Virus record (IMG/VR): IMGVR_UViG_3300036985_002657
Span: 1-64,000 of that record
Direction: 5' to 3' (one strand)
DNA from: a virus
Length of the DNA stretch: 64,000 nucleotides
Under the pieces are notes generated by a model that did no database searches, was not told where the DNA came from, and worked only from the letters and a program-made list of their open reading frames with translations. Shown here piece after piece: positions 4,651 through 41,085 of this stretch. Within the stretch, counting starts at the first letter, position 1; the number at the start of each line of letters is the position of its first letter. Position numbers and translations under genes: made by a program.

Positions 4651-7236
4651 ATGATCAGACTCGCGCTGTACCCCATGCTACCGCAGGCAGCGGTCTCGCT
4701 CGCGCATCCCACAGCGGTCGATCACGACTGCGAACGCTGCGAGCTACACCAAGGCAGGCGTACCGTCTGCATGGCAGCCGAGGGCGCGCCTGGCGGGCTG
4801 CTCGTCGTCGCGGAGTCGCCCGGCAAGATCGAAGATCAGATGGGGCGCGGCTTCGCAGGTGCGGCGGGCAAGTACGTTCGCTCGCTGGTGGCGAAGCACT
4901 GGGGCGGCCCGGTGGCTTACGACCACGGTGTTCGGTGTCAGTCCACCGACGCAGGCGAGAAGGAGATCGCCGCGTGCCGTGTGTTCGGCGCGCGCATCCT
5001 GCTCGACGTGCAGCCGACGCGCATCCTGTGTCTCGGCAACGCGGCGGTGGAGGCGGTGCTCGGACATCGGCCGCCGCTCGCCAGCGCGCAACGCGGTTAC
5101 GGCTTCGTCTTCACCGCGCTCGATGATGCGATCCCCGTGTTCTTCCTGCCTGCCGCCGCGTTCGCGCTGCGCAACAGGTTCGTCAAGGCGGACTTCGAGC
5201 GCGACTTCCAACACGTCCTGACGTGCCCTGCGCCGGAGCCAGACTTCGACGAGCAGACAAACCTGATCGAGACTCGCGGCGATGCCGAGCTCGCCGTGCG
5301 CGTGCTCCAACAGGCTCCTTGGTTCTCCTACGACGTGGAGACCTCGGGCAAGATGGGCAACCCCGACTTCCGCATCGAGGCGCTGACGGCGATGGGCTTC
5401 GGGCAGGGCGATGCCTACACTTGGACCCGCGAGGCTCTGCGCGATCCGAGCATGACAGCGAAGCTGACCCAACTGCTCGCCGATCGCACCGTCGGCAAGA
5501 CGACACAGAACGGCAAGTACGATGATCGCTCCGTTCTTTGCGCGCTGAGCGTGAACGTCGAGGGCACCCGCTTCGATACCCGCCTCGGGCGCAAGCTGCT
5601 CGCCCCCGAGTCCGACGCACGCTTGGACACGCTTGCCTACCTCGTTGGGCTCGGCGGGCACAAGGACGAAGCGGGCGACCAGCTCGCGATCATCTGCAAG
5701 GAACTGCGCCGCCTTGCCAACCCACCTGCGCAACTGACGCCAAAGGGCAACGTGCGGAAGATCAAGCCGCCGTTGTTCCGTGTCGAGGAGTCCGTGCTCC
5801 AGCAGATCCGCGATGGTGAGGACGCGATGGCGTTCGCCTTCCGCTACCTCGATCCCACAACGCTCTACCGCTACAATGCGCGAGACGTGCAGGTGACGCT
5901 GCGCTGCGGCGTCAAGCTCGAAGCCGAACTCGCTGCCGACCCACAGACCAACCGCGTCTGGCGAGAGCTCACCGTCGGAGCCAACACCGCCGTCCGAGCG
6001 ATGGAGCACTGGGGCATCGCGTGCGACCGCCGCGCCGTCGAGATGTTCTCGATCTACTGCGAAGCGCGCATCAAGGACGCGACGAAGACGATCGAGAAGC
6101 ACGTCCCGGGGCTGAACCCCAACTCGCCGAAGCAGGTCGGCGACTTCCTGTTCAACAAGCTCGGGCTCAAGTCGTGGAAGGAGACCAAGAGCGGCGCGCA
6201 GTCTACGGACAACGAGGTGCTCGAGTCGCTCGCCCACAAGCACCCTGCGATCAACGCGCTGGTCAAGAGTCGCAAGTACACCAAGCTCAATGGCACCTAT
6301 GCACGCGGGATGCTGATCCATATTCGCGAAGACGGGCGCATCCACCCAAGCATCCTGATCGACGGCACGCGCACGCTGCGCTTCTCCTGCACCGATCCCA
6401 ACCTCCAGAACATCCCGCGTGCGGAGGGCGACGATGCGGTGGAGGCGGCGATGGCGCGCAACTGCTTCATCGCCCCGCCCGGCAGTCTGCTGCTCGAGCT
6501 GGACTACGCGCAGATCGAAGTGAAGGTGGCGGCGATGTTGGCGGGAGACGCGGTGATGATCGCCGACATCAACTCAGGCATCGACATCCATATGAACAAC
6601 GCGACTGCCTGCTGCACCGTCGCCTGGGGCATCCCGCGCGCGCAGTGGGATGCGATGGACAAGGCGGCGCGCAAGCCCTACCGCTCCAAGATCAAGACTG
6701 CGACCTTCGCCAAGCTGTACGGCAAGACGACGAGTGCGCTCGCCCGAGAGTGGGGCGCGCCAAAGGCCGAGGTCGAGAAGATCGACGCGGTGATCTGGGG
6801 CCGCTACAAACGCCTGGCGAAGTGGTGCGAGGAGCAGATCGCACAGGCGCGCCGCGTCGGCTACGTCGAGACGTGGTGGGACGGGCAGGCTGCCTACCGC
6901 CGCCCGCTGCACAAGGTCGCCGACCCCGAGGAGAACGTGCGCAAGCACGGCGAGAACGAGGCCGTCAACACGCCGGTACAGGGCACGGCGGCGCACTTCA
7001 TGTCGGCATCCCTGCCCCGCGTGCTCGACTGGATACGAGACGACGGCGCGCCCGCCAAGCTCGTCCTCACCGTCCACGACTCGATGATGCTCGAGGTGAA
7101 GGAGAAGTACGTCGATGAGGTGGCGCACGCCGCCCGCGACATCATGTGCAGCCATAACAGCAGCGGTGTGAAGATCACCGCCGATGCGAAGGTCGGGACC
7201 GCGTGGGGCTCGATGCAGGACTACGTCTTCAAGTGA
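4651..7236 (+). CDS. Family A DNA polymerase with N-terminal UDG-like domain
   Basis: An 861-residue replicative polymerase. Residues about 25-195 look like a uracil-DNA-glycosylase-fold domain: CERC at 27-30, Cys40, and the motif AESPGKIEDQMGRGFAG at 54-70. A DEDD 3'-5' exonuclease follows: DVE at 228-230, NGKYD at 287-291, YNARD at 408-412. The polymerase domain has motif A ELDYAQIE (616-623), motif B with Arg678, Lys682, Tyr690, and motif C VHDS (808-811), where most relatives have HDE. UDG-like domains fused to family A polymerases are known, for example in phage SPO1. I chose ATG 4651 because upstream in-frame starts lie inside the inverted repeat. Confidence 0.92.
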   Translation: MIRLALYPMLPQAAVSLAHPTAVDHDCERCELHQGRRTVCMAAEGAPGGLLVVAESPGKIEDQMGRGFAGAAGKYVRSLVAKHWGGPVAYDHGVRCQSTDAGEKEIAACRVFGARILLDVQPTRILCLGNAAVEAVLGHRPPLASAQRGYGFVFTALDDAIPVFFLPAAAFALRNRFVKADFERDFQHVLTCPAPEPDFDEQTNLIETRGDAELAVRVLQQAPWFSYDVETSGKMGNPDFRIEALTAMGFGQGDAYTWTREALRDPSMTAKLTQLLADRTVGKTTQNGKYDDRSVLCALSVNVEGTRFDTRLGRKLLAPESDARLDTLAYLVGLGGHKDEAGDQLAIICKELRRLANPPAQLTPKGNVRKIKPPLFRVEESVLQQIRDGEDAMAFAFRYLDPTTLYRYNARDVQVTLRCGVKLEAELAADPQTNRVWRELTVGANTAVRAMEHWGIACDRRAVEMFSIYCEARIKDATKTIEKHVPGLNPNSPKQVGDFLFNKLGLKSWKETKSGAQSTDNEVLESLAHKHPAINALVKSRKYTKLNGTYARGMLIHIREDGRIHPSILIDGTRTLRFSCTDPNLQNIPRAEGDDAVEAAMARNCFIAPPGSLLLELDYAQIEVKVAAMLAGDAVMIADINSGIDIHMNNATACCTVAWGIPRAQWDAMDKAARKPYRSKIKTATFAKLYGKTTSALAREWGAPKAEVEKIDAVIWGRYKRLAKWCEEQIAQARRVGYVETWWDGQAAYRRPLHKVADPEENVRKHGENEAVNTPVQGTAAHFMSASLPRVLDWIRDDGAPAKLVLTVHDSMMLEVKEKYVDEVAHAARDIMCSHNSSGVKITADAKVGTAWGSMQDYVFK

Positions 7237-7254
7237 AGCGAAGACAACGCTGAT

Positions 7255-7264
7255 CGCACAAGGC
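7255..7264 (+). promoter_or_regulatory. CGCACAAGGC spacer element, copy 3
   Basis: Third copy, in the 48-base spacer after DNA polymerase, 20 bases before the next ATG. The flank GATCGCACAAGGC is identical to copy 1, and the further upstream AGACAACGCT resembles copies 1 and 5. Confidence 0.5.
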
Positions 7265-7284
7265 TACAGTTAGGAGGCAAGACG

Positions 7285-7782
7285 ATGGCGAAGAAAGAGA
7301 CAGCACACGAAGCGGTACTGGCAGCGGTGGCGATCGACCCGCTGGCGCTCACCGACGAGTTCACCAAGATCCCATCCCACCTGGCTCGCTATAACGAGCT
7401 CTACGCTGACGCGCTGCGGCTGCACCTGTCGGCGAAGGTGAAGGTGGATCGCGCCTACGCGGCGAGCTACATCCGGTGCCGCGCCGAAGCGGAGGAGACC
7501 GGGGCGAAGACGACCGAGGGCATGATCAAGTCGATGGTGGACAACGACCCGACCTACCACGCCGCGCAGGATCACAGTGTCGTCTGCGAGGCAGAGAAGG
7601 CTCGGCTGTGGGGCGTGCTCGACGCGCTCCGCGCCAAGCGTGACGCGCTGATCTCACTCGGCGCGCACCTCCGCGCGGAGATGGCAGGCAGCCCGAGCAT
7701 CCGTGGTGAGGCGCGCGGCGCTCGCGACGTGGCATCCAACTTCGAGAACGACGATACCTTCGGTGTCGAAGTGACCGAGTAA
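7285..7782 (+). CDS. Helical protein upstream of ssDNA-binding protein, function unknown
   Basis: A 165-residue, mainly helical protein. It starts MAKKET, as does the next gene, and its body (KARLWGVLDALRAKRDALISLG) suggests a short coiled coil. A TTAGGAGG-type site precedes the ATG. It lies between the polymerase and a gp32-like protein, so a recombination or replication accessory role is likely. I do not recognise a family. Confidence 0.75.
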   Translation: MAKKETAHEAVLAAVAIDPLALTDEFTKIPSHLARYNELYADALRLHLSAKVKVDRAYAASYIRCRAEAEETGAKTTEGMIKSMVDNDPTYHAAQDHSVVCEAEKARLWGVLDALRAKRDALISLGAHLRAEMAGSPSIRGEARGARDVASNFENDDTFGVEVTE

Positions 7783-7792
7783 CGCACAAGGC
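7783..7792 (+). promoter_or_regulatory. CGCACAAGGC spacer element, copy 4
   Basis: Fourth copy, directly after the stop codon of the upstream gene (TAACGCACAAGGC) and 46 bases before the ATG of the ssDNA-binding protein gene. Confidence 0.5.
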
Positions 7793-7838
7793 AGAGTTCG
7801 ACCGCAGCCAATCAAGGCTATAGGTCAAGGAGACAGAG

Positions 7839-8657
7839 ATGGCGAAGAAAGAGACGACGAGTACGAGCCTGGTCCAGTTCGGTGACTTCACCGCTGACGA
7901 AGCCTCGGAGATGAAGCGGGAGTCAGAGGCGGCGAGCGGCGGTGGGATCATCTTCAAGCTCAAGCCCGGACGGACGGTGGTGCGCCCCATCCCGCCGAAG
8001 AAGGGCGAGAAGCTGATGAAGGTCGCCTACGTTCACTACCTCGACGTGCCCGGCACTGGCCGCGTGTCGTTCAACTGCCCGCGCCTGATGGCGAAGCGCG
8101 CGTGCTCGGTGTGCGCCACGGAGACGAAGCTGCTCGCCACTGGCGAAGACAACGACTTCAAGAAGGCGAAGAAGTTGAAGGCGAAGCGCCAGCTCTACAT
8201 GAACATGATCGTTCGCGGCGACGAAGGTGTCGGCCCGCGCGTGCTCCGCTTCGGCAAGATGATCGAGGACCAGCTCATCGAGATCCGCCAGGACGAGGAC
8301 GACGGCGGCAACTTCTCCCACCCGACGGCAGGCTTCGATCTCAAGATCAGCCGCAAGGGTGAGGGCCAGAACGACACTGAGTACAAGGTGGTCGCCAGTG
8401 GCGCGCGGCCTTCCCCGCTCGCTGCCGACGCGGCGCAGATGCAGGAGTGGATCGACAACCAGCCCGACCTCTCCCGCTTCCTGCGCGTGATGAGCGACGA
8501 GCAGATCGAGCGCAAGCTCAACGGCGAGGAGGGCGGTGGCAGCGACGATGACGCCCCGCGACGCCGCCCTGCGATCGAGGCGACGGCGAGCACCAGCAAG
8601 CCGCGCTCGCGCAGCATTGAGTCCGAAGTGGACGCAATCGAAGTCGACGACGAGTGA
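7839..8657 (+). CDS. Single-stranded DNA-binding protein, gp32-like
   Basis: A 272-residue protein with the plan of phage gp32-type SSBs: a basic N-terminus, a central OB-like region containing a cysteine cluster (FNCPRLMAKRACSVC, probably zinc-binding), and an acidic, disordered C-terminal tail ending in EVDAIEVDDE that would contact replication partners. It would coat ssDNA at forks and during recombination. Its place between the polymerase and recA supports this. Start ATG 7839 has AAGGAGA upstream. A perfect UUCG hairpin follows the stop. I infer the SSB family from organisation and motif, not a database match. Confidence 0.75.
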   Translation: MAKKETTSTSLVQFGDFTADEASEMKRESEAASGGGIIFKLKPGRTVVRPIPPKKGEKLMKVAYVHYLDVPGTGRVSFNCPRLMAKRACSVCATETKLLATGEDNDFKKAKKLKAKRQLYMNMIVRGDEGVGPRVLRFGKMIEDQLIEIRQDEDDGGNFSHPTAGFDLKISRKGEGQNDTEYKVVASGARPSPLAADAAQMQEWIDNQPDLSRFLRVMSDEQIERKLNGEEGGGSDDDAPRRRPAIEATASTSKPRSRSIESEVDAIEVDDE

Positions 8658-10056: not shown

Positions 10057-10160
10057 CCTGGCAGTGGTGGCTCGGTGGCATCTGCCTGGGCAAGTTCTTG
10101 GGACTCACGCTCGGCGTGCGTCTGTGGATCTGGCTGACTGACCAACTGAGGCAGAAATGA
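10053..10160 (+). CDS. 35-residue tryptophan-rich putative membrane peptide
   Basis: A very short frame starts at GTG 10053, overlapping the previous stop as GTGA, and ends at TGA 10158-10160, overlapping the next ATG as ATGA. It encodes 35 residues with a hydrophobic span (WWLGGICLGKFLGLTLGV) and a charged end (TDQLRQK), consistent with one membrane helix. The four-base overlaps on both sides are the same signature used by the confirmed genes, so I consider it real. Function unknown. Confidence 0.6.
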   Translation: MTWQWWLGGICLGKFLGLTLGVRLWIWLTDQLRQK

Positions 10161-11263
10161 AGATCGCGTTCGTGGCCGATGTCCATCTGTCCAACCATCG
10201 CCGCTTCGGCGGCGAGATGATCGGCGGACTCAACACCCGCTTCCGGCAGTCGGTCGCCGTGCTCGACAAGGCGATCCGCGTCGCAGCGAACACCGGCGCG
10301 CGCACGCTCTACGTCCTCGGCGATCTGTTCGACAGCGCCAAGCCGACGCCGCAGGAGCTCACCGCCGTGATGGAGGTCTTCGATCGCAGCGAGGAGCTCG
10401 ACGTACACCTGATGCTCGGCAATCACGACCAGGCATCGAACACCGATGGCGATCACGCTCTTGGCCCGCTGACGGCGCTGCGCAACGTGACCGTCTACCA
10501 GCACCCGGTGGCTGCCTTCGGCATGATCGTTGTGCCGTTCCAAGTCGGCCCGGCGCGCGAGTGGCTGCCTGGTGTCGTGGCGCGGACTGTGCGCGGTAGC
10601 AACTCGCGCACGCTGCTGCTGCATATGGGCGTCGCCGATGACAGCACCCCGCCGTTCCTGCGTGGTGCGTCGGACTCCATTCCAGTCGATGATCTCGTGG
10701 AGATCATGGGCGCGCACGGTATCCGCAACGCCTTCGCGGGCAACTGGCACAACCCCCAGACGTGGCGGCGTACCGCGCCACAGGGCAGCGAGCATCTCGT
10801 CACCCAACTCGGGGCGCTGGTGCCAACAGGCTTCGACAACCCTGGCCTCGACTACGGCCATATGGCGATCCTCGACACCGAGACTGCCGCCGTGACTGAC
10901 ATCGAGCTCTCCGGCGGGCCGCGCTTCATCACCGCCCCATTCGAGGATCTGGATCTCGAGGACGTGGCAGCGACGGGGCTGCGGCACGAACTCTACCTGC
11001 GTGTCGCCGCGCGCCCCAAGAACGTGAAGCTCGCGCAGGCTGCGCTGAAAGAGCTACAGGCAGATGGCAAGCTGATCGCCTTCGAGGTGCTGCCCGACAA
11101 GGAGGCTGCGAGCGCGACGGCGAAGAACACCGCGCGCACCACGCGCAACGCGACCTCTGTGAACGACGCCGTCGCAGCCTATGTCGCCAAGACCGCGATG
11201 CCAGACGGCACAGATCGGCGCGTGGTACTCGAGCTAGTCAAGGACTACTTAGCTCGGGGCTAA
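10157..11263 (+). CDS. SbcD/Mre11-like (T4 gp47-type) nuclease
   Basis: A 368-residue calcineurin-like metallophosphoesterase, the nuclease subunit of a recombination complex. Metal-binding motifs appear in order: DVH near the N-terminus (10-12), GDLFDS near 55, GNHDQ near 94, and FAGNWHNP near 194. It would resect DNA ends together with the SbcC-like ATPase encoded 1 kb downstream, feeding RecA. The start ATG overlaps the stop of the small membrane peptide. Length is typical for SbcD and T4 gp47. Confidence 0.85.
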   Translation: MKIAFVADVHLSNHRRFGGEMIGGLNTRFRQSVAVLDKAIRVAANTGARTLYVLGDLFDSAKPTPQELTAVMEVFDRSEELDVHLMLGNHDQASNTDGDHALGPLTALRNVTVYQHPVAAFGMIVVPFQVGPAREWLPGVVARTVRGSNSRTLLLHMGVADDSTPPFLRGASDSIPVDDLVEIMGAHGIRNAFAGNWHNPQTWRRTAPQGSEHLVTQLGALVPTGFDNPGLDYGHMAILDTETAAVTDIELSGGPRFITAPFEDLDLEDVAATGLRHELYLRVAARPKNVKLAQAALKELQADGKLIAFEVLPDKEAASATAKNTARTTRNATSVNDAVAAYVAKTAMPDGTDRRVVLELVKDYLARG

Positions 11264-11276
11264 GACAGCGATCGAT

Positions 11277-11285
11277 GCACAAGGC
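11277..11285 (+). promoter_or_regulatory. CGCACAAGGC spacer element, copy 5 (variant)
   Basis: Fifth copy, TGCACAAGGC, with one mismatch in the first base. It lies in the 28-base spacer after the SbcD-like gene and only six bases before the next ATG, so here it would overlap the ribosome-binding region. Confidence 0.45.
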
Positions 11286-11291
11286 AGGCGT

Positions 11292-11642
11292 ATGAGATTG
11301 AAGCGCGTGTTCCATGCACGAACAACCGGCGGGCCAACTATCGGCAGCGGCAACCACAACGACCCTGAGTGGTTGCTCGAAAACATCACACTCGATCAGA
11401 TCGAGGCGATGCTCGCGTCGGTCGTTCCTGCACTCGATTCCGACGCGGTGAACGTTGAGCTAAGCGCAGTCACCCCGCTGTTTACCGACTGGGAACGCGA
11501 GCTCGTGATCAGCCTCAACGAGCAATATGACACGAAGCATCTGAAGGGCTATCACGATCGCCCGCTGTCGGGCCGCCAGTTGTTCTACCTCCACAAGTTC
11601 TACGCGCGGGTCGCGCTGGACACCGCCGCCGCGCTGAGATGA
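11292..11642 (+). CDS. Small protein between sbcD-like and exonuclease genes, unknown
   Basis: A 116-residue protein with a mixed alpha/beta composition and no motif I recognise (NITLDQIEAMLASVVPAL; LNEQYDTKHLKG). No strong Shine-Dalgarno is visible because the CACAAGGC element occupies the leader. It sits inside the recombination gene block. Function unknown. Confidence 0.65.
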   Translation: MRLKRVFHARTTGGPTIGSGNHNDPEWLLENITLDQIEAMLASVVPALDSDAVNVELSAVTPLFTDWERELVISLNEQYDTKHLKGYHDRPLSGRQLFYLHKFYARVALDTAAALR

Positions 11643-11658
11643 AAGGAAAGGTCCACTG

Positions 11659-12261
11659 ATGCCGAAGAAAGCTGCTGATCCCCGCCTCGTGTTTCTCGAT
11701 CTCGAGACGACTGGCCTCGAACCCGAACAGGACGCCATCCTCGAGATCGGCATGGTGGTCTGCGACATCCGTGAGTCGTTTGCGCCACTCGCGGAGTGGT
11801 CGGTGCCTGTGAAGACCAAGCCCGCGACGCTGGCGATGATGAGCGACTTCGTGCGCGGGATGCACCAGATGAGCGGCGTGCTCGTCGCGCTTGAGGGCGG
11901 CGTGTCACTCCGCGAGGCCGAATCGGCAGCGGCACACTTCCTCAACGAGCAGAACTTCACCTACGGCACCGTGACGATGGCAGGTTACGGGCCGCACTTC
12001 GATCGTGCGTTCTTGAAGAAGCATATGCCTACGCTGCACAACTTCTTCGACTACCGCATGGTGGACGTGAGCACGCTGCGCGGGCTAGTGCGGCGACTGG
12101 TCGATCCCGACATCGACTCGCATATCGCGCCGGTGCTCGCGGGCTATCAGAAGCACCGCGCGATCTCCGACTGCTACGCCGCGTGCGATGAGCTCGCCTT
12201 CTACAGCAAGTACCTGTTCGACGTGGACGGGCTGCGCAAGGCGATGATGGAGATCCTCTGA
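11659..12261 (+). CDS. DEDD exonuclease, oligoribonuclease/RNase T-like
   Basis: A 200-residue 3'-5' exonuclease of the DEDDh group. The first acidic motif DLETTGLEP gives Asp14 and Glu16; a central FDRAF supplies the second Asp; HRAISDC near the C-terminus gives the His and last Asp. Length and layout resemble oligoribonuclease and RNase T. Substrate could be small RNAs or DNA 3' tails in recombination. A GAAAGGAAAGG stretch precedes the ATG. The last base of its TGA stop is the first base of the next ATG. Confidence 0.8.
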   Translation: MPKKAADPRLVFLDLETTGLEPEQDAILEIGMVVCDIRESFAPLAEWSVPVKTKPATLAMMSDFVRGMHQMSGVLVALEGGVSLREAESAAAHFLNEQNFTYGTVTMAGYGPHFDRAFLKKHMPTLHNFFDYRMVDVSTLRGLVRRLVDPDIDSHIAPVLAGYQKHRAISDCYAACDELAFYSKYLFDVDGLRKAMMEIL

Positions 12262-13895
12262 TGCGTGTTTGCGAGATCGAACTGCTTGGCGTGATGACAC
12301 ACGCCCACTCCAAGGTCGCGCTGCCGCGCACAGGCATCGTCCTCGTCACTGGCCCCAACGGTGCGGGCAAGTCCTCGCTGCTCGAAGCCGTCAGCGTCGG
12401 CGGGTGGGAGGAGCCGCTGCGCCGCAAGCCAGTGTGGTCGGCTCCCAAGGCATCGATCACGCTGACCGCCGAGGTCGGGCGCGAGCAACTGGTCATCGAT
12501 CGCTCGCGGATCAAGAGCAAGAGCGCGCTGGTGTTCTCCTCGCCGACGGCGGTGCCCGTCACCTACGAGACGAAGACGAAGGCGCAGGCTGCACTCGAGC
12601 GCATGATCGGCTCGCATCTGCTCTGGCGCAGGACGTGTGTCTTCTCCTCGAGCGATGCCGATCACTTCACGCTCGCCACGGACGGGGAGCGCAAGAAGCT
12701 GCTCGAAGACATCCTCGGCTTGGAGCGATTCGATGCCGCGCACGCACTGGCGCTGAAGGCGAAGCGGGAAGCGGGCATCGCGGCGACGACTGCGGGCTCG
12801 ACGTTGGCGCTGGCTGCGGAGCGGCTTCAGGCCGGGCGCGACAGGCTGGCCGATGCCTTGGAACGACTACAGAGCCTTTCAGGGGGCAAGGACATGGCTC
12901 CAGGCGACCTTGCCCTGCTCGAGAAGGCACTCGAGCAAGCCGAACGTACAGTCACACGGAAACAGACCGCCTTCGATGAAGCGAAGGAGTCCCTCAACCT
13001 CGCCCATGCGGAGGTACGGGCAGCGGAGAAACGCGCGAGTCGCATCGAGGGACTGGACACCTGTACGCTCTGCGACCAGTCGATCAACTCCGCACACCAC
13101 GAAGCGATGCACGCGGAAGCTACGCGCGTGGTTGCGCACTGGGCTCCGATGATCGCAACGACCGAAGACCACATCGACGCGCTCCGCATCGAACTCCGCG
13201 CCGCCAACCAGCGTGTGATCACACTGAGCGAGAAGCGTGGGCGGCTGCACGCCGAGGCCCGTGCTGCGGCGAAGGTCGCCGAACAGCGTGCGACGGCTGA
13301 CGCGGCGGTGCTGGCGCTGCGCGAGAAGTGCGAGACGGCGGCTGACACGCTGGACGAATCGCGCGAGGCGCACAAGCTCGCCGAGGCCGAACTGATCAAC
13401 ATCACTGCTGCCGAGAAGGTGCTCTCGCTGACGGGCGTTCGATCCTACCTGCTCGGGCAGGCGTTGGCGGGCATTGAGGAGGTGGCGAACACCTGGCTTG
13501 CGCGCGTCGCGGGCGGCGGGCTCGAGCTTCGGTTGCAGCCCTACGCCGAGAAGGCAAGCGGCGGTGTGAAGGACTCGATCTCACTCGAGGTCGAGGGCGC
13601 AGGCGGCGGGCACGGCTACCGCGCTGCGTCGGGCGGAGAGCGGCGTCGCATCGACATCGCGCTGATGCTGGCGCTCGCGGAGATCGCGGAGGCCGCTGTC
13701 GGCACCACAGGCAATACGCTGTTCTTCGACGAAGTGTTCGACGCGCTTGACGGCGATGGCGTCGATGCTGCGTGTGCGGTACTAGACGAGCTCGCAGCGG
13801 ATCGCTGCGTCGTGGTCATCAGTCACAATATGGATCTCGCGGCTCGTCTGAATGTGACGAAGCACCTGACCATCAACAAAGGAACGATCTCGTGA
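12261..13895 (+). CDS. SbcC/Rad50-like (T4 gp46-type) ATPase
   Basis: A 544-residue SMC-like ATPase partner of the SbcD-like nuclease. Walker A GPNGAGKSS is at 31-39, the zinc-hook CTLC near 268-271 lies between two coiled-coil arms, and the C-terminal lobe has the signature GGERRRIDIAL and Walker B LFFDEVFDALD. It is much shorter than bacterial SbcC and close to T4 gp46, so the arms are short. It ends by overlapping the GTG start of folE (GTGA), directly linking recombination and modification genes. Confidence 0.88.
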   Translation: MRVCEIELLGVMTHAHSKVALPRTGIVLVTGPNGAGKSSLLEAVSVGGWEEPLRRKPVWSAPKASITLTAEVGREQLVIDRSRIKSKSALVFSSPTAVPVTYETKTKAQAALERMIGSHLLWRRTCVFSSSDADHFTLATDGERKKLLEDILGLERFDAAHALALKAKREAGIAATTAGSTLALAAERLQAGRDRLADALERLQSLSGGKDMAPGDLALLEKALEQAERTVTRKQTAFDEAKESLNLAHAEVRAAEKRASRIEGLDTCTLCDQSINSAHHEAMHAEATRVVAHWAPMIATTEDHIDALRIELRAANQRVITLSEKRGRLHAEARAAAKVAEQRATADAAVLALREKCETAADTLDESREAHKLAEAELINITAAEKVLSLTGVRSYLLGQALAGIEEVANTWLARVAGGGLELRLQPYAEKASGGVKDSISLEVEGAGGGHGYRAASGGERRRIDIALMLALAEIAEAAVGTTGNTLFFDEVFDALDGDGVDAACAVLDELAADRCVVVISHNMDLAARLNVTKHLTINKGTIS

Positions 13896-14611
13896 GCGAC
13901 GAACAAGAGCAAGGCCGCGAGCTGGAATCACTCGGCACGTCAATGCGCGCCACAATCAAGCGGCTCCAGAAGGAACTCAGCGAGTCGATGGAACTGCGCG
14001 AGCGCGAGAACGACGCTCGCGCCGAGCTCGCCCTCCCGGTGGAGCACGCGCACGAGGCGGTTCGCTTCCTGCTCCGGCACATCGGCGAAGACCCGACGCG
14101 CGAAGGGCTGCTCGACACGCCGCGTCGCTGGGTCGATGCGATGCTCGAGATGCGCAGCGGCAACAGCGTCGATATCGCGAAGCTCCTCAAGGTGACGTTC
14201 GATTCGGGGCACTACGATGAGATCATCGCCGTGACCGACATCGCATACACTTCGATGTGCGAGCACCACCTCTTGCCGTTCACCGGCAAGGCAGCGGTGG
14301 CGTACCTCCCGTCCGAGGACGCAGGCGGCTACCGCGTTGTCGGGCTGTCGAAGATCCCGCGCCTCGTAGACGCCTTCGCGCGCCGCTTGCAGATGCAAGA
14401 GCAGTTGACGACGCAGATCGCCGAAGCGTTCGATGAGTACGTCAAGCCGCGCGGCGTCGCCGTGCTGCTCACCGGCGAGCACTCCTGCGCCTCGTGCCGG
14501 GGCGTGCGCAAGTCGGGGATGGTGATGATCACCTCGATTCTGCGGGGCGCGTTCCGCAACAACGAGGCAACGCGCGCAGAGGTTCTGCGCCTGATCGGAG
14601 GAAGCAAGTGA
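13892..14611 (+). CDS. folE: GTP cyclohydrolase I (FolE)
   Basis: A 239-residue protein whose last 185 residues are GTP cyclohydrolase I: EDPTREGLLDTPRRW, the zinc-site SMCEHHLLPF, VGLSKIPRLVDAFARR, and the second zinc cysteine segment HSCASCRGV. It converts GTP to dihydroneopterin triphosphate, the first step to 7-deazaguanines. The N-terminal 45 residues are an extra charged helix. GTG 13892 is chosen because it overlaps the SbcC stop. In phages, folE next to queE and dpdA is a hallmark of DNA 7-deazaguanine synthesis rather than folate synthesis. Confidence 0.92.
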   Translation: MSDEQEQGRELESLGTSMRATIKRLQKELSESMELRERENDARAELALPVEHAHEAVRFLLRHIGEDPTREGLLDTPRRWVDAMLEMRSGNSVDIAKLLKVTFDSGHYDEIIAVTDIAYTSMCEHHLLPFTGKAAVAYLPSEDAGGYRVVGLSKIPRLVDAFARRLQMQEQLTTQIAEAFDEYVKPRGVAVLLTGEHSCASCRGVRKSGMVMITSILRGAFRNNEATRAEVLRLIGGSK

Positions 14612-14985
14612 CCACCCGCGCTACGAAGATCATCGCCACTGCGAGCATCGTCGGGTTCCACCGCTGGGAGGGCGCGCCGGAGGATGTGGCGTACCTCTCG
14701 CGCAACCACCGGCACGTCTTCACGTTCCGCGTCGAGCTCCTCGTCTCGCACGGCGATCGTGAGGCGGAGTTCCACACCGTCCAGCGCGCGCTCCGCTGGA
14801 TGCTCCCCCGGCTGGCGAAGGAGGCGCCGATGGCAAGCTGCCCCGAGGAGGCGTGGTTCGGCGGGCAGTCCTGCGAGATGCTCGCCGCGGCGCTGTTCAA
14901 CCAACTGGTCGCCTGCGGCTACACGCCGACCGCGATCGAGTGCTGGGAAGACAACGAGAACGCCGGGCGCGTGGAGTTCGCGTGA
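14608..14985 (+). CDS. QueD-like T-fold protein lacking the catalytic cysteine
   Basis: A 125-residue protein starting at GTG 14608 (overlapping folE as GTGA, with GGAGG upstream). Its layout parallels QueD/6-pyruvoyl-tetrahydropterin synthase: His18 in GFHRW and His34/His36 in NHRH fit the three zinc histidines, a strand FTFRVELLVSH follows, then a helix QSCEMLAAALFNQL and the strand AIECWEDNE with glutamates where the substrate-binding Glu sits. Position 30, where QueD has its catalytic Cys four residues before HxH, is Leu. A canonical QueD is encoded at 48941-49330, so this one probably does something else, such as processing carboxydeazaguanine. Family placement is by pattern only. Confidence 0.55.
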   Translation: MTTRATKIIATASIVGFHRWEGAPEDVAYLSRNHRHVFTFRVELLVSHGDREAEFHTVQRALRWMLPRLAKEAPMASCPEEAWFGGQSCEMLAAALFNQLVACGYTPTAIECWEDNENAGRVEFA

Positions 14986-15968
14986 TGCTGTGGGTGTTCC
15001 CCATCGAGCCGATCGAGGAACGGTACAGCGCGCAGTGGGCACGCTGGTGGCAGCGCGAGCTTGCACGGCTGCGTGTGCCGCACCGCTTCGTGATGCCGTG
15101 GCGGGACGTGGCGGCAATCCACACCGGACAGTTCCTCGACACGCGCCTCACCCACAAGTGGAAGGCGAACCAGCTGGCGATGTTCGTGAACGCGATCCTC
15201 GAAGGCGAAGTGCAAGACGGCGATTGGGTGATCCTACACGACGCCTGGAACCCGATGCTCGAGAGTCTCGCGTACATCAGAGACACCGAAGGGCCGAAGT
15301 TCAAGATCGCCGGGCTGTTCCACGCAGGCACCTACGACCCTCACGACTACCTCGCGCAGAAGGGGCTGGGCCGCTGGGCTGGGTCGATCGAGCGCGGGTG
15401 GCTCGAGGCGCTGGACCGCGTGTTCGTCGCCACCGACTACCATGCTGCGCTGATCAACCATCCCAAGGCGGAAGTGACCGGCTTCCCGTTCTACATCGAC
15501 GAGTTCGCCCGCCACTTCCGCCCGTGGGCTGAGCGGGAGAAGCTGGTGGTCTTCCCGCACCGGCTCGCGCCGGAGAAGCAGCCTGCGGTTTTCGATCAGG
15601 TGCGCGAACTGTACGCGCGGCGCTACCCCAGCGACGCGGTGCGCTGGGTGCGGACGCAGGACGTGTGCAAGTCGAAGGACGACTACTACTCGCTGCTCGG
15701 GTCGGCGCGCGTGTCGTTCTCCGCAGCCTTGCAGGAGACCTGGGGCATCGCGATGCTCGAGTCGCTGGCGCTTGGCGCTTGGCCGGTCGCGCCTGCGCGG
15801 CTCTCGTACCCCGAGACGGTGGGCTGGTTCAACCTCTACCCGCGCACCGCTGATTCAGTGGATATGATTCACGCACGCCTGCACGAGACAATCGCTTCGC
15901 CGTTCCGATACCCCGAAGGCGAGAACGCCATCGCTGCTATGATCGCTGCCATGCCAGGAGTCCTATGA
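14985..15968 (+). CDS. Glycosyltransferase, GT-B / group 1-like
   Basis: A 327-residue protein with features of retaining GT-B glycosyltransferases in its C-terminal half: VVFPHRLAPEKQP (the donor-site loop), then SARVSFSAALQETWGIAMLE and SLALGAWPVAP, the region with the conserved acidic residue for nucleotide-sugar binding. Within a modification operon it could glycosylate a modified base, as phage alpha/beta-glucosyltransferases do, though a receptor or capsule target cannot be excluded. Start ATG 14985 overlaps the previous stop by one base (TGATG); GTG 14982 is an alternative. The stop overlaps the radical SAM start as ATGA. Confidence 0.75.
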   Translation: MLWVFPIEPIEERYSAQWARWWQRELARLRVPHRFVMPWRDVAAIHTGQFLDTRLTHKWKANQLAMFVNAILEGEVQDGDWVILHDAWNPMLESLAYIRDTEGPKFKIAGLFHAGTYDPHDYLAQKGLGRWAGSIERGWLEALDRVFVATDYHAALINHPKAEVTGFPFYIDEFARHFRPWAEREKLVVFPHRLAPEKQPAVFDQVRELYARRYPSDAVRWVRTQDVCKSKDDYYSLLGSARVSFSAALQETWGIAMLESLALGAWPVAPARLSYPETVGWFNLYPRTADSVDMIHARLHETIASPFRYPEGENAIAAMIAAMPGVL

Positions 15969-16933
15969 CCGTCGAGAGCTACGTCCACGAAGAAGGCACC
16001 GCGTTCAGCGCGTTGCCAGAAATCTACCAGATCGAACTGACGAATCACTGCAACCTCGCCTGCCCCATGTGTTTGCGCACAACGGGCATGGTGCGGCGTC
16101 CGCAGTTCCTCGACCGCGGTCTGATCCAGAAGATGCTCGCGCGCGGCGACTTCGCAGGCACGGCGTACACCGAGCTCCAGATGGCGGGCGAGCCGACGCT
16201 GCACCCAGAGCTCGGCGGCATCATCGACGATCTCAAGACCTACGGGCTACTGGTGGGAGCCAGCACGCACGGGCACGAGATCCAGCGGAAGCCAGGCGTG
16301 CTCGAGGCGCTCCTCAAGCTCGACGCGCTGACGATCAGCGTGGACTCGGTGGACCCTGAGATGTACGCCGCGATGCGTCCGCCGACGCAGCTCGACCACC
16401 TCATCGCAGCGATCGATGCGTTCGTGGTGGCCGCGCGCAAGCTGCCCACCCGCCCGCTCGTCGAGCTCCAGCTCATCCAGACCGTGAAGGAGCGCGGACT
16501 CGGCGACGCAAACCTCGATGCGCTTCATCGCGTCATGCAGGAGCGGGGCTGGGGCGACGTGTGTACGGCGCGCGTGCAGGGTGACTGCTTCCCCGAGATG
16601 CAGAACGTCGTGCAACTCGGCACCCGCAAGCGGAACGCCGATCTCTGCATCAACCCCTGGTCGTCGGTCTCGATGCTGGCGAGCGGGCAGGTCGTGTCCT
16701 GCTGCTACATCTTCGAGGCTGCTACCGACGCCGTCAACAGCTACGGCAATCTGAGCACGAACACGCTGGCGGAGGTCTGGGCTTCCGCTGCCGTGCAGGC
16801 GATGCGCGTGTCGCAGAAGACCGGCGAGCTTCGCGACGCCTGCCGTAGCTGCTTCCTCAAGAGCCCCACGCTGATCCACCAGAACATCGTGGCGCGCCTC
16901 GTTCGCAATCGAGCCATGCAGGAGAGAACATGA
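15965..16933 (+). CDS. Radical SAM enzyme with SPASM domain
   Basis: A 322-residue radical SAM protein. CNLACPMC at 29-36 is the CX3CX2C motif binding the [4Fe-4S] cluster, followed by MAGEPTLHPEL (the GGE-like SAM site). The C-terminal part is SPASM-like: DLCINPWSSVSML, a Gly-rich strand with VSCCYIF, YGNL, EVW, and a final CRSC, which would bind auxiliary clusters. It could carry out difficult chemistry on a base, sugar or peptide. Being coupled by ATGA overlaps between a glycosyltransferase and a kinase suggests it acts in the same modification pathway. Its substrate is unknown. Confidence 0.8.
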   Translation: MTVESYVHEEGTAFSALPEIYQIELTNHCNLACPMCLRTTGMVRRPQFLDRGLIQKMLARGDFAGTAYTELQMAGEPTLHPELGGIIDDLKTYGLLVGASTHGHEIQRKPGVLEALLKLDALTISVDSVDPEMYAAMRPPTQLDHLIAAIDAFVVAARKLPTRPLVELQLIQTVKERGLGDANLDALHRVMQERGWGDVCTARVQGDCFPEMQNVVQLGTRKRNADLCINPWSSVSMLASGQVVSCCYIFEAATDAVNSYGNLSTNTLAEVWASAAVQAMRVSQKTGELRDACRSCFLKSPTLIHQNIVARLVRNRAMQERT

Positions 16934-17787
16934 TCAACGGCAAGAAGATGATCGCGCTGACCGGCGTAGAGAGCACGGGGAAGACGACGCTCACCACGGT
17001 GCTCACTGGGAGGCTGCGCACGCGCGGCATCTTGGCGGAGTCCGTGGGGGAGGCAGGCGCGGCGTCGCCCTTCCCCGGCGCGTTTCTCGACTCCGGCTAC
17101 GCAGGCTGGATGTACCTGATCGGCAACAAGATGGCGCTCGAGGTCACGAAGGCTACGCGCGCCAACGTCAACGTCGTGGTCTGCGATCGCACGCTGATGG
17201 ACTACGGGCTCTACTTCAAGACGCGCTTCCCAGGTCAGCCGATGGCAGAGGAAATCTTCGCACTAGCGCAGGAGTGGATCAGGCAGTACGACATGATCTT
17301 CTATCTGCCCCGCGCAGGCAGCACCTACCGGCAGGACGGCTACCGCGCTTCGCCCGCCGAGAACTACTGGCACGCGAAGGCGGACGCCGCCTACCTCGAG
17401 TTCTGGTCGGCGAACCCGCGCGCAACGTGCGTGCCGCAGGGCTTCGACTACCGGGAGCGCGGCGAGTTCGTCTACCACAAGGTCATTGAGAACCTGCTCG
17501 GGGAGACGAAGGCATCCCGCGCCTACGAGTACCTGCGCGAGTGGCTCAACGCGAACGGCGTGCGCGTGCTCGCCGTTCACCCGCGAGGCTCGCAGTCGAT
17601 CACAGAGACCAAGACGCCCCGCCCCGACAGCGATGCCGACGCGGTGATCATCGTGGACGGCGATGCCGACTACGCGCAGAGCGCCGCGACGATGTTCGCG
17701 CAGCATCGCGCCAACGTCGAGAAGGTGCTCCAGCACGATCTCGACCTCTGCTTCTCCCCTCGGCACCTCGCGGCGCACGAGCTCTGA
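16930..17787 (+). CDS. P-loop kinase, NadR/AAA_28-like, with C-terminal extension
   Basis: A 285-residue P-loop protein with Walker A GVESTGKT (12-19), VVVCDRTLMDYGLYF near 75-90 and a lid-like segment TYRQDGYR. This pattern fits the nucleoside/NadR-like kinase group (AAA_28). About 75 extra C-terminal residues (from VLAVHPRGSQ) are unusual. Phages that hypermodify DNA often encode a P-loop kinase that phosphorylates a base side chain; this could act with the radical SAM and glycosyltransferase neighbours. The overlap ATGA upstream and TGATG downstream link it to both neighbours. Confidence 0.75.
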   Translation: MINGKKMIALTGVESTGKTTLTTVLTGRLRTRGILAESVGEAGAASPFPGAFLDSGYAGWMYLIGNKMALEVTKATRANVNVVVCDRTLMDYGLYFKTRFPGQPMAEEIFALAQEWIRQYDMIFYLPRAGSTYRQDGYRASPAENYWHAKADAAYLEFWSANPRATCVPQGFDYRERGEFVYHKVIENLLGETKASRAYEYLREWLNANGVRVLAVHPRGSQSITETKTPRPDSDADAVIIVDGDADYAQSAATMFAQHRANVEKVLQHDLDLCFSPRHLAAHEL

Positions 17788-18743
17788 TGCGAGTCTATCT
17801 CGCCGCGCCTGCGCAACTGTACCAGTACCACACGCCGTTCCAGGCGCGGCGACTGCTGATCTCCTTCGTCAAGATGAGTTGGGGCGTGGAGAAGTTCCAG
17901 CTAGCTCTCGACAACGCGAAACCCACACACGGGTATTGCGTGGACTCCGGCGCGCACGTCTGGCTGTCGATGTTCTTCAAGAAGCAGGAGAAGCCGCCGA
18001 TGGCAAAGGTCGAACAGACCATCGAGCGGTTTCTCCCGATGGTGCAACAACTGTCGGGCGACCCGCAGTTCGTCGTCGATCTCGACATCCAGCGCATCTA
18101 CGGTCTGCCGGTGATCGACGGCTGGCGCAAGACCATCTGGCAGCCCTTCGAGCGCGCGTCCGGCATCCGAGTCTGCTACGTCTGGCACCCGTCCGACGGG
18201 GAGGCGCGCTGGGAAGAACTGCTCGCCGATCCTGACGTTCACTACCTGGGGATGGGCTCGAGCTTCAAGATGATGCCCGTCGAGGCGTGGGCTCGTCTCG
18301 TCTACCGCGCCTACCAGGCAGGCAAGCCGGTGCATGGCTTTGCGAAGATCAACGCGAAGTATCTGATGAAGGTTCCCTTCTACTCCGTGGACTCGACATC
18401 CTGGGCGTCAGGATCGTTCTTCGGCACCGTCCCGCATTTCAACGCAACAACCGGCGCGATCAATCAACGATCCGTCGGCGACAAGGCTCGGCAGAACGTC
18501 GGTGCAGCAGCGGTGCTGACTCGGTTGGCAGTCACCGCGCAGGGTAAGATCAAGGCAGACCTACTCCAAAGGGGTGCGTTCATTGGAAAAGATTACCAAT
18601 CGTTCTACCAAAACGGCGTCGATCAGTACACCCGGTTCGAGGCGTGGTTCACCGCCTACTGGAAAGCCCGAGGAGTCGACTGGGACGCCCAGCTCGCTCG
18701 CCACGGAAACCTCGGGCCTCCCGACTCTCTCGATCCCAGATGA
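17787..18743 (+). CDS. dpdA: DpdA-like DNA guanine transglycosylase (TGT superfamily)
   Basis: A 318-residue protein resembling phage DpdA proteins, which replace guanine in DNA with a 7-deazaguanine. Visible signatures are VDSGAHVW (52-59), VVDLDIQ (96-102), VHGFAKI (182-188) and YSVDSTSW (199-206), consistent with a TIM-barrel whose aspartates act in base exchange. The context is diagnostic: folE, a QueD-like gene and queE lie in the same operon, and there is no queuosine tRNA gene set. It follows the kinase with a one-base overlap (TGATG). I cannot tell which DpdA subfamily it belongs to. Confidence 0.75.
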   Translation: MRVYLAAPAQLYQYHTPFQARRLLISFVKMSWGVEKFQLALDNAKPTHGYCVDSGAHVWLSMFFKKQEKPPMAKVEQTIERFLPMVQQLSGDPQFVVDLDIQRIYGLPVIDGWRKTIWQPFERASGIRVCYVWHPSDGEARWEELLADPDVHYLGMGSSFKMMPVEAWARLVYRAYQAGKPVHGFAKINAKYLMKVPFYSVDSTSWASGSFFGTVPHFNATTGAINQRSVGDKARQNVGAAAVLTRLAVTAQGKIKADLLQRGAFIGKDYQSFYQNGVDQYTRFEAWFTAYWKARGVDWDAQLARHGNLGPPDSLDPR

Positions 18744-18768
18744 GTTCGGCGTCGTCCGCTTCGGCGAC

Positions 18769-19419
18769 ATGAGGCTCGGGATGGTCGAGACGACTCGGCT
18801 CGAGCAGCGCCGAGACAACCCGCGCGCTATGAGCACGTCGGAGTACGAGACCCTGAAGCGATCGATGGACAAGTTCGGCTTCAAGAGTTTCGTCGTCGCG
18901 GAGGAGATCGAGCCAGGCCGCTACGGTGTGATCGACGGCCACCACCGCTGGCGCGCTGCGACAGAGCGCGGAATGGCGCGCATCCCGGTCGTGCTGCTCG
19001 ATAGCGGCACCGACAAGTCCTGGGCGGACCTCGCCATGCTGACGTTCAACGTCACCGGCGACCCGCAGGAGGACAAGTACGTCGAGCTCCTCGCCGAGCT
19101 CACCACGCTGCTCGGTGCCGAGACAACGGCGCTGTTCACGGCGCTGGACACCAACTTCCTCGAATCCTTCGGCAAGAACATGGCGGAGACGATGGACGCC
19201 GCAGACGCCGCTACTGCCGCCGCAGGTGGCGAGGAAGCGGGCTGGCAAGGTCGCCCGATCCTCGTTGAGTTCCCGCGTGTCGATGATGTGGTGGCGCTGT
19301 TCGCCGAAGTGACTGCGCTGACTGGGGAGACAGTGCTTGGGCGTGCTGTACTCACCGCACTTCGCGAGTGGGTGAAGATCAAGCGTCCCGCACAAGACAC
19401 AGTGCAGGAGGTCGAATGA
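18769..19419 (+). CDS. ParB/sulfiredoxin-like domain protein, possible DpdB analogue
   Basis: A 216-residue protein with the ParB/Srx motif VIDGHHRWRAATERG and the preceding RRDNPRAMSTSEYETL and KFGFKSFVV. Bacterial Dpd islands pair the transglycosylase DpdA with DpdB, a ParB/Srx-like protein; here the gene follows dpdA directly, so a similar partnership is likely. The start is uncertain: the frame stays open back to GTG 18574 inside dpdA, and residues just before ATG 18769 (IPDEFGVVRFGD) look protein-like, so the true start may be further upstream or use a rare codon. The stop overlaps queE as ATGA. Confidence 0.7.
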   Translation: MRLGMVETTRLEQRRDNPRAMSTSEYETLKRSMDKFGFKSFVVAEEIEPGRYGVIDGHHRWRAATERGMARIPVVLLDSGTDKSWADLAMLTFNVTGDPQEDKYVELLAELTTLLGAETTALFTALDTNFLESFGKNMAETMDAADAATAAAGGEEAGWQGRPILVEFPRVDDVVALFAEVTALTGETVLGRAVLTALREWVKIKRPAQDTVQEVE

Positions 19420-20096
19420 TCAAGCTCCAGCGATACGCGGTCACAGAAATCTTCCACACCATCCAGGGCGAAGGGCATCACGCAGGCACGGCGGCGGTCT
19501 TCATCCGTTTTGCAGGCTGCAATATGTGGGGCGGGCACGTCGAGAACAATGGCCGCCGCGCAGCCGCCGAAGCGCAGGAGGCGCACTGCCCGCTGTGGTG
19601 CGACACGGACTTCCGCGTTCGCGAGGTGCTGACGAGCGCGGAGATCCTCACCCGCGTCGGCAAGTTGCCGGGCGCACAGATGGTGGTGCTGACCGGCGGT
19701 GAGCCGCTGCTCCAGCTCACCTACGAGTTGATCGAGGAGCTCTACCGCCTGTTCGGCATGGTCGCTGTCGAGACGAACGGCACGCTGACGCCGCCCGCCA
19801 ACAGCCGATCGCTGCTCTGGCTGACGATGTCGCCGAAGGTCGCACCAGCGAAGATCAAGCTGCGCAACCCCAACGAGATCAAGGTCGTGTTCCCTGACTA
19901 CAATCCGCTCGACTACCTGCCATTCGCGGGCAAGCAGACGCGGCTGTTCGTGCAGCCGCGTGCGACGTGCGAGACGCAGACCGTCGGTAGGAGCCTGCTC
20001 GCGCCGGACGTGATCGGTGCGGCAGCGAACTTCGTTCTCACCCACCCCGAGTGGAGACTGAGTCTCCAAACCCACAAGTTGGTAGGTCTGCCCTAA
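19416..20096 (+). CDS. queE: 7-carboxy-7-deazaguanine synthase (QueE)
   Basis: A 226-residue radical SAM enzyme that makes CDG from 6-carboxy-tetrahydropterin. It has FHTIQGEG near 13-20, FAGCNMW (Cys35), CPLWCDTDF (Cys58, Cys62), LTGGEPLLQ and VETNGTL, all typical of QueE. The cluster cysteines are spaced CX22CX3C, longer than the CX3CX2C of most radical SAM enzymes and than the CX14CX2C known in Burkholderia QueE. AGGAGG lies three bases before the ATG, which overlaps the ParB-like stop. It is the last gene of the modification operon. Confidence 0.9.
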   Translation: MIKLQRYAVTEIFHTIQGEGHHAGTAAVFIRFAGCNMWGGHVENNGRRAAAEAQEAHCPLWCDTDFRVREVLTSAEILTRVGKLPGAQMVVLTGGEPLLQLTYELIEELYRLFGMVAVETNGTLTPPANSRSLLWLTMSPKVAPAKIKLRNPNEIKVVFPDYNPLDYLPFAGKQTRLFVQPRATCETQTVGRSLLAPDVIGAAANFVLTHPEWRLSLQTHKLVGLP

Positions 20097-20123: not shown

Positions 20124-21005
20124 ATGCTAAAGAACTGCCGACGCTGTGATCAACCGTTTGAGGCGCTGCGCGCGATGGCGTACTGCTCGGACAACTGTCG
20201 TGATCAGTACGACCCAGATCGTTTCTGGGCGAAGGTCGATCGCAGCGCGGGGCCGCTGGCGTGCTGGCCGTGGCTCGGCTCGTGCGATCCCAAGGGCTAC
20301 GGTTGGTTCAGCGTGGGTAAGACCATGCGACACGCGCACCGCGTCGCGCTCGAACTGCATCTTGGCCGCCGACTCACGCCGACTGAGTACGCACTGCACA
20401 CCTGCGACAACCCACCATGCTGCAACGTGCATCCTGATCATGTTCACCAGGGAACCGCACTCGACAACTGCGCCGAGATGTACGCGCGCGGGCGGGATGC
20501 CAAAGCACGCGGAACAGCAAACGCGGCTACAAAGCTCACGGGTACACAGGTACGCGAGATCCGCGCCGTGCGGGCCGAGTGGCTAGCCGCCCACCCCGGC
20601 CGGGTGCGCGTGGAACGCGGCTCGCCAATCTCGACAGGTGTGCTGGCCGCCAAGTACGGTGTCAGCACCGCGACGATCACTGCTGTCGTAAAACAACGAA
20701 CCCACAAAGATCGGACTGCCCTGATGAAACAGCTATCCCTGTTCGCCCCCGGCGACAACACTGAGATCCTCCCCGCCAACACCCACCCGCTGCCCTACAT
20801 CCAAGTCGGGATGCGGCTGAAGCTGCGCAAGGGCGGAACGAAGTTCACCGTGACTTCGATCGATGAAGTCGAAGTCACGACGCGAGCTCTCTGCATCTGG
20901 GTCGGCGGTAAGCAGACGAGCGAGGACTGCCTGTACTTGCGCGAGCAGGCGTGGCTCGCCGAAGCGTTCGATCCGTCGTGCGCTGCGAGCGAAGCGCGCC
21001 GCTGA
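20124..21005 (+). CDS. HNH endonuclease with zinc finger and extra C-terminal domains
   Basis: A 293-residue protein. An N-terminal CRRC and CSDNC zinc finger precedes an HNH_3-type core: CWPWLGSCDPKGYGWF, HRVALELHLG, LHTCDNPPCCNVHPDHV. A helix-turn-helix-like segment (KLTGTQVREIRAVR, then TGVLAAKYGVSTATI) follows, as in homing endonucleases with NUMOD-like DNA-binding parts. The last 90 residues look like a small beta domain. It is not coupled to queE by overlap and may be a free-standing mobile endonuclease at the end of the left gene set. A strong terminator follows. Confidence 0.8.
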   Translation: MLKNCRRCDQPFEALRAMAYCSDNCRDQYDPDRFWAKVDRSAGPLACWPWLGSCDPKGYGWFSVGKTMRHAHRVALELHLGRRLTPTEYALHTCDNPPCCNVHPDHVHQGTALDNCAEMYARGRDAKARGTANAATKLTGTQVREIRAVRAEWLAAHPGRVRVERGSPISTGVLAAKYGVSTATITAVVKQRTHKDRTALMKQLSLFAPGDNTEILPANTHPLPYIQVGMRLKLRKGGTKFTVTSIDEVEVTTRALCIWVGGKQTSEDCLYLREQAWLAEAFDPSCAASEARR

Positions 21006-40840: not shown

Positions 40841-41085
40841 ACTCCCATCAGCACAGCGCGGCGAAGGTAGGATGCCAACTTCTGCGCGTCACCGAAGTCC
40901 ATGTCGAGCCGGAGCTTCGACAGCCCGCCCGCCATCGCGCGGTTGATCTCAGACTCCATCGCCTGCGCGAGCTCGAGCGCCGCGAAATAGTCGAGCTTCG
41001 CGCCATCGGGCATCGGCGGAACCTGCCCGCCTGTGCGCGCCAGTTGCCGTTCGAGTCCCGCCTTGTGATCGAGTTGTGAAGTCAT
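40837..41085 (-). CDS. 82-residue helical protein, unknown
   Basis: A charged helical protein ([35 protein letters not shown]). ATG 41085 overlaps the collagen-like gene stop as ATGA and the gene ends in another ATGA overlap. Its position downstream of a fibre gene would fit a small fibre-assembly chaperone, but this is only a guess. Confidence 0.6.
   Translation of the reverse strand: MTSQLDHKAGLERQLARTGGQVPPMPDGAKLDYFAALELAQAMESEINRAMAGGLSKLRLDMDFGDAQKLASYLRRAVLMGV

Follow-up and report, generated by a model that had tools for sequence, protein, structure and literature searches.

A phage operon predicted to insert a decorated, probably glycosylated, 7-deazaguanine into DNA from a precursor made without QueC

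Bases 1–64000 of the 77,136-base IMG/VR virus record IMGVR_UViG_3300036985_002657 (hereafter the window) contain an operon of eight genes, at 13892–20096 on the plus strand, through which the phage very probably replaces some guanines of its DNA with a 7-deazaguanine. We put the probability at about two in three that the encoded enzymes make a decorated form of this base and insert it, with a glycosyltransferase (GT) adding a sugar, which is the most likely decoration. All eight open reading frames of the original prediction are present and in the order it gave: folE, a short queD paralogue that we refer to as PTPSx, the GT gene, and genes for a radical SAM/SPASM enzyme, a P-loop kinase, a DpdA-like transglycosylase and a ParB_N-domain protein, followed by queE. 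The near-continuous overlaps it described are there as well, with overlaps of 4, 1, 4, 4 and 1 bases from folE to the DpdA gene; the only gap, of 25 bases, separates the DpdA and ParB genes, and the ParB gene overlaps queE by 4 bases. No near nucleotide match to the operon was found among 50,697 phage records. Dozens of divergent viral contigs carry this set of genes together, which indicates more than a chance association.

The putative deazaguanine glycosyltransferase is encoded by the third gene of the operon (14985–15968). The protein is GT4-like; its match to Glycos_transf_1 (PF00534; 4e-5) scores 23.7 bits, just under the cut-off of 26.4, and its family profile matches group-1 GTs in the Protein Data Bank (PDB) at 4e-4. 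One pattern scan of IMG/VR with the GT alignment detected relatives on at least 393 viral contigs, of which 80 loci were fetched and grouped into 62 clusters at 70% identity; here and below, neighbourhood counts refer to genes within 5 kb of the query gene. A deazaguanine gene was found near the GT in 78 of the 80 loci; in the other two, L063 and L066, the GT lies close to a contig end. Sixty of the 62 clusters contain at least one of FolE, QueD, QueE, DpdA and PTPSx, and 45 contain at least three (PTPSx in 53, DpdA in 47, FolE in 47, QueE in 44 and QueD in 38); these counts come from profiles iterated on the same loci and stand without a random background. When PTPSx was used as the query instead, the GT was present in 57 of 80 loci and FolE in 53. 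Because each set of loci was picked by similarity to one gene, and not by gene content, this co-occurrence is informative. Profile maps place the GT with PTPSx, FolE, QueD, QueE, DpdA and, at times, ParB in many gene orders, and the GT adjoins deazaguanine genes in the cultured phages ACP17, Phosso, X1, PA5oct and BUCT-ZZ01. In ACP17 the set comprises QueD, FolE, a phrog_10773 protein, GT, PTPSx and QueE, and the unannotated phrog_10773 protein shares that group with the annotated queuine tRNA-ribosyltransferase of X1.

One explanation that retains a small chance of being correct is that the phage DNA carries plain 7-carboxy-7-deazaguanine (CDG) or 7-deazaguanine, and that the GT, radical SAM enzyme and kinase are unrelated passengers on a shared transcript, engaged in virion protein or surface glycan chemistry. 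The core genes can indeed stand alone, since one related locus (L005) carries SbcD, exonuclease, SbcC, QueD, FolE, PTPSx, DpdA, ParB and QueE with no GT, SPASM radical SAM or kinase, and the Cellulophaga phage phiST has FolE, QueD, QueE and PTPSx with no GT. However, unrelated passengers would not be expected to track the deazaguanine genes, whereas the GT and SPASM families occur almost only beside them, on contigs that are divergent and vary widely in gene order. Rather than being found apart from the dpd genes, the relatives recovered with each decorating family as its own query lie almost exclusively beside DpdA, FolE, QueE and PTPSx. The linkage thus argues well for the original proposal that the deazaguanine pathway includes the GT, radical SAM enzyme and kinase; the narrower part of that proposal, that all three act on the same base, is less secure, as the kinase may build a donor and not act on the base itself.

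The DpdA-like protein (17787–18743) matches the queuine tRNA-ribosyltransferase group phrog_887 at 7e-19 (and phrog_7068 at 0.002), and its conserved residues are like those of tRNA-guanine transglycosylases (TGTs): D53-S54-G55, D100, H134, H183 and D202, in the numbering of the window protein, are nearly invariant in 57 relatives. DpdA swaps guanine in DNA for deazaguanine (PMC6884629), and from its sequence the window protein is predicted to be a DNA guanine transglycosylase that inserts the modified base. The ParB_N-domain protein (18769–19419; PF02195, 5e-9) is probably a DNA-binding accessory of DpdA; a ParB gene also adjoins DpdA in Fusobacterium phage phiFN37 and in L005, L013–L015, L017, L018 and L200. 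Scans of viral contigs with the single DpdA protein, or with the single radical SAM protein, found no relative of either, and alignments were needed. There is a slim chance that the GT, radical SAM enzyme and kinase first decorate a free base or nucleoside, the finished base then being inserted by DpdA. Consistent with such an order, it is free bases that DpdA and TGT enzymes insert, and the base varies with the DpdA group (PMC6884629). Against it, the pockets of the TGT fold are small. In mannosyl- and galactosyl-queuosine, moreover, the sugar is carried by a base that is already in tRNA (PMC12518689).

We consider it improbable that the GT acts on some other base, such as a hydroxymethylated pyrimidine, and merely neighbours the deazaguanine genes. 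The well-known phage DNA glycosyltransferases do target hydroxymethylpyrimidines or hydroxycytosine (PMC12783734, PMC13390438). However, PF00303, the thymidylate synthase/hydroxymethylase family, is missing from the record and from 30 of the 35 GT-bearing records searched, and no member occurs in the cluster; we therefore disfavoured a hydroxymethylpyrimidine as the GT substrate.

All of the enzymes for synthesis of CDG are encoded in the record, in that FolE, QueD and QueE together convert GTP to CDG (PMC6884629). By profile search the three are clear family members. The assignment of FolE, GTP cyclohydrolase I (13892–14611, GTG start; PF01227 1e-63, and TIGR00063 6e-60, over the cut-off) is unambiguous, and this enzyme is predicted to carry out the first step from GTP. 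QueE, a 7-carboxy-7-deazaguanine synthase (19416–20096), matches TIGR04508 at 4.5e-45, with 154 bits against a model cut-off of 240, and phrog_2076 at 5e-27; its CX3C cysteine spacing, odd at first sight, is ordinary, being common to relatives such as those in L013 and L178. The QueE copy in L005 is 57% identical to that of the window. In the same L005 cluster, the one without decorating genes, a frame at 7221–8018 is, judged by eye from its translation, a putative YhhQ-like queuosine-precursor transporter. The true queD of the window, for 6-carboxytetrahydropterin synthase (48941–49330; PF01242 1.6e-28, 95.2 bits and over the cut-off; TIGR03367 3.7e-21), lies outside the operon, on the opposite strand and 29 kb away from the other pathway genes.

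No match to QueC (PF06508) was found anywhere in the 77-kb record. Of 52 related records, 50 likewise lack QueC, among them the genomes of the isolates ACP17, Phosso, PA5oct and BUCT-ZZ01; of the two matches, one (G046) is slightly over the cut-off and covers 74 of 210 positions, and the other is below it. The absence of QueC implies that the last common precursor is CDG and not preQ0. This also bears on the very improbable alternative that the pathway raises queuosine in host tRNA and leaves the DNA unmodified. Some phages do carry preQ0 genes without DpdA (PMC6884629); however, preQ0 and queuosine both require QueC, which is consistently absent here, and the transglycosylase matches a phage group, phrog_887, and adjoins a ParB-domain protein.

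The second gene of the operon (14608–14985), which had been described as QueD-like, indeed encodes a protein with the QueD fold but not QueD itself. PTPSx matches phrog_17812 (1.8e-15) and has no match in Pfam, PF01242 included, or in NCBIfam; its family profile nevertheless aligns with that of QueD at 95.7% probability in hhalign (E 9.8e-9), and its AlphaFold2 model, with a predicted local distance difference test score (pLDDT) of 93.5, has E. coli QueD (4ntk) as its best PDB match (TM 0.70, E 4.6e-6), so that by its model PTPSx has the QueD T-fold. Residues H18, H34, H36, R35, R51, E54, S88-C89-E90 and E114-D115 are invariant in 53 sequences. The family thus retains the three metal-site histidines and a glutamate near the C-terminus, with no conserved cysteine at the position of the QueD catalytic cysteine, whereas in the set of true QueD proteins used for comparison C25 and H66 are invariant and D65 is nearly so. 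We rejected the identification of PTPSx as QueD on the basis of the missing PF01242 match, the lack of a conserved catalytic cysteine and the separate true queD; both proteins are also carried by L005 and by Acidovorax phage ACP17. We regard PTPSx as a putative T-fold enzyme of the zinc type, with a deazaguanine or a pterin as its substrate. A predicted CDG decarboxylase, DpdL, is reportedly described by Cui et al. 2023; we suspect that PTPSx belongs to the DpdL family, and phiST, reportedly one of the phages of that study, would presumably fit this idea, having PTPSx and no GT.

The radical SAM/SPASM enzyme (15965–16933) matches PF04055 at 1.1e-11 and, through its SPASM domain, PF13186 at 3.9e-10; C29, C33 and C36 (CX3CX2C) and the SPASM cysteines are invariant among relatives. 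The family is almost virus-only, with members on 20 viral contigs; 84,980 genomes of bacteria and archaea yielded a single contig with a member. DpdA or the GT is present in 20 of the 21 SPASM loci, and in the remaining one (L182) the contig begins 227 bases upstream of the gene. The single genome match (L198) is a 12.8-kb contig of a metagenome-assembled genome that also carries GT, DpdA, QueE and PTPSx; it probably comes from a phage and was binned with a bacterium. Neither the radical SAM enzyme nor the kinase had a tblastn match in the phage records, so both families have been seen only in uncultured viruses. The least credible of the alternatives is that these two proteins form a viperin/nucleotide-kinase-like unit making a modified nucleotide: some viperins are associated with kinases, and PADLOC viperin models match the radical SAM enzyme weakly (4e-11), but SPASM maturase models score better (2.6e-17), the protein has a SPASM domain with invariant cysteines, and the radical SAM and kinase pair tracks the deazaguanine cluster. 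We accordingly rejected its identification as viperin.

The step assigned to this enzyme appears to be exchangeable. ACP17 has the GT and PTPSx with no extra radical SAM, so the GT is independent of it, and this phage, together with the GT clusters lacking a recognised extra radical SAM, shows that the radical SAM enzyme is not required for every product. A different radical SAM lies beside the GT in 27 loci (PF04055, up to 2e-14). A second, non-SPASM family, which has no match in the phage records, is encoded between PTPSx and the GT in many relatives, among them L031 (8685–9980), L035 (8688–9998) and L053 (8676–9983). In 6 loci a PAPS-reductase-like gene, perhaps an alternative decorating or sulfur/amide step, is beside the GT; examples of this ATP-pyrophosphatase near the GT/DpdA cluster are at L074:7663–8730 and L008:6332–6862. 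In a GT tree built by a quick method, 11 changes are required to explain the SPASM label, and well-supported branches force at least 6 of these; some labels of 'none' may conceal divergent radical SAMs, for example in L018. Such repeated changes suggest that the decorating step has been exchanged between otherwise similar clusters.

The gene described in the original prediction as a P-loop kinase (16930–17787; AAA_28, 5e-11) does contain a kinase domain, but one that is fused to a putative nucleotidyltransferase-like domain, and the protein may build a donor. Roughly 190 residues with a NadR/TMK-like fold are followed by about 90 residues with the motif GSxS...DxD, which is typical of pol-beta nucleotidyltransferases. 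The AlphaFold2 model (pLDDT 75) matches NadR and TMP kinase. In the C-terminal part, the motif is formed by G220-S221-x-S223 and D235-x-D237, and GSxS and DxD are invariant in 5 sequences. All 7 contigs on which the fusion family was found carry the cluster. A related-looking protein of about 160 amino acids, with no Pfam family, is encoded between the GT and the kinase fusion in L018 (10782–11264) and L013 (4945–5517).

Taken together, these findings are consistent with a pathway in which FolE, the distant QueD and QueE would convert GTP to CDG with no passage through preQ0, PTPSx would remodel CDG, possibly by removing its carboxyl group, and DpdA, assisted by the ParB-like protein, would replace guanine in phage DNA with the PTPSx product. 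The GT4-like enzyme would then attach a sugar to the inserted base, the radical SAM/SPASM enzyme would perform an additional carbon-centred step on the base or the sugar, and the kinase fusion would phosphorylate and activate the added group. The formation of CDG and its insertion by DpdA would follow from what is known of these families, whereas the participation of the GT, radical SAM enzyme and kinase in the pathway, the identity of the sugar and the order of the steps are inferred only from linkage. The least certain roles are those of the radical SAM enzyme, which probably adds or rearranges carbon on the base or sugar, and of the kinase fusion, which probably activates a precursor. Several observations weigh against this pathway. 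DpdA was recognised in just 47 of the 62 GT clusters, and in 37 of the 62 no extra radical SAM was recognised within 5 kb. The nucleotidyltransferase domain is based on its motif and on sub-threshold Pfam matches to NTP_transf_2 (E 0.066 over residues 227–273, and 0.45), which fall at the right place. Finally, decarboxylation of CDG by PTPSx would leave a 7-H base with no hydroxyl for ordinary O-glycosylation; the sugar might instead be attached through a carboxylate ester, through C7 or through an amine.

Known 7-deazaguanine bases of DNA carry small groups, namely cyano, amido, aminomethyl, carboxyl, methyl and formyl. Cui et al. 2023 reportedly describe phages with dCDG and dDG and the enzymes DpdL, DpdM, DpdN and DpdA3/DpdA4; in those phages too CDG would be the last common precursor, and no glycosylated derivative, GT or SPASM radical SAM is known to have been reported in that work. 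With the phage 7-deazaguanine systems surveyed earlier (PMC6884629), the window shares FolE, QueD, QueE, a DpdA-type transglycosylase and an expected escape from restriction; it differs from them in lacking QueC and in having PTPSx, the GT, the radical SAM/SPASM enzyme, the kinase fusion and ParB integrated in the operon. Mycobacterium phage Bipper also has FolE, QueD, QueE and DpdA and no QueC, with decorating genes not reported there (PMC6884629). The closest precedent for a glycosylated deazaguanine is mannosyl- and galactosyl-queuosine of animal tRNA (PMC12518689), in which a sugar is likewise placed on an inserted deazaguanine-type base; that base, however, is in tRNA and not DNA, and its sugar is on cyclopentene hydroxyls that the window pathway does not make. 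Stepwise decoration in DNA, glycosylation included, is also known from hypermodified pyrimidines with 5-hydroxymethyl-dU or -dC handles (PMC12783734), whereas the base here is a purine analogue and the record has no member of the thymidylate synthase/hydroxymethylase family. The deazaguanine system is known and, as far as we have checked, its decorating module is not; a search of the open-licence literature retrieved no report of DNA with a glycosylated deazaguanine, which is weak evidence of novelty.

The remainder of the record is that of a tailed phage, with terminase, portal, major head, tape-measure, baseplate and tail-fibre genes and replication genes of its own. Immediately upstream of the operon (10157–13895) are SbcD-like, exonuclease-like and SbcC-like genes, the last of which is overlapped by the folE start by 4 bases; L005 has these three genes in the same order ahead of its cluster, and in L017 and L018 the cluster follows SbcC-like frames. 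An HNH endonuclease gene (20124–21005; phrog_1872) lies directly 3' of queE, and a repetitive, collagen-like tail fibre gene is at 41082–42572 on the minus strand.

A 2019 survey of GenBank listed 182 viruses with any deazaguanine gene (PMC6884629). With slightly better than even odds, we propose a widespread class of phages with glycosylated 7-deazaguanine DNA, made from CDG without QueC by way of PTPSx, DpdA and a dedicated GT, in which exchangeable modules (the SPASM radical SAM, the second radical SAM, the PAPS-reductase-like enzyme and the kinase–nucleotidyltransferase fusion) diversify the sugar or base; the final base in the phage studied here would carry a radical-SAM-derived group and a sugar. 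Our analysis also provides candidate functions for orphan phage families, namely phrog_17812, the SPASM family and the kinase fusion, and the presence of the GT in the cultured Acidovorax phage ACP17, Pseudomonas phages PA5oct and Paride, Xanthomonas phage X1 and Sinorhizobium phage Phosso makes the proposal testable now. If it is correct, a sugar-bearing deazaguanine would be for guanine what glucosyl-hydroxymethylcytosine is for cytosine in T4, and would form a bulky shield against restriction and CRISPR. As hundreds of uncultured phages have gene sets related to this one, DNA containing a sugar-deazaguanine may be a common, unrecognised phage shield.

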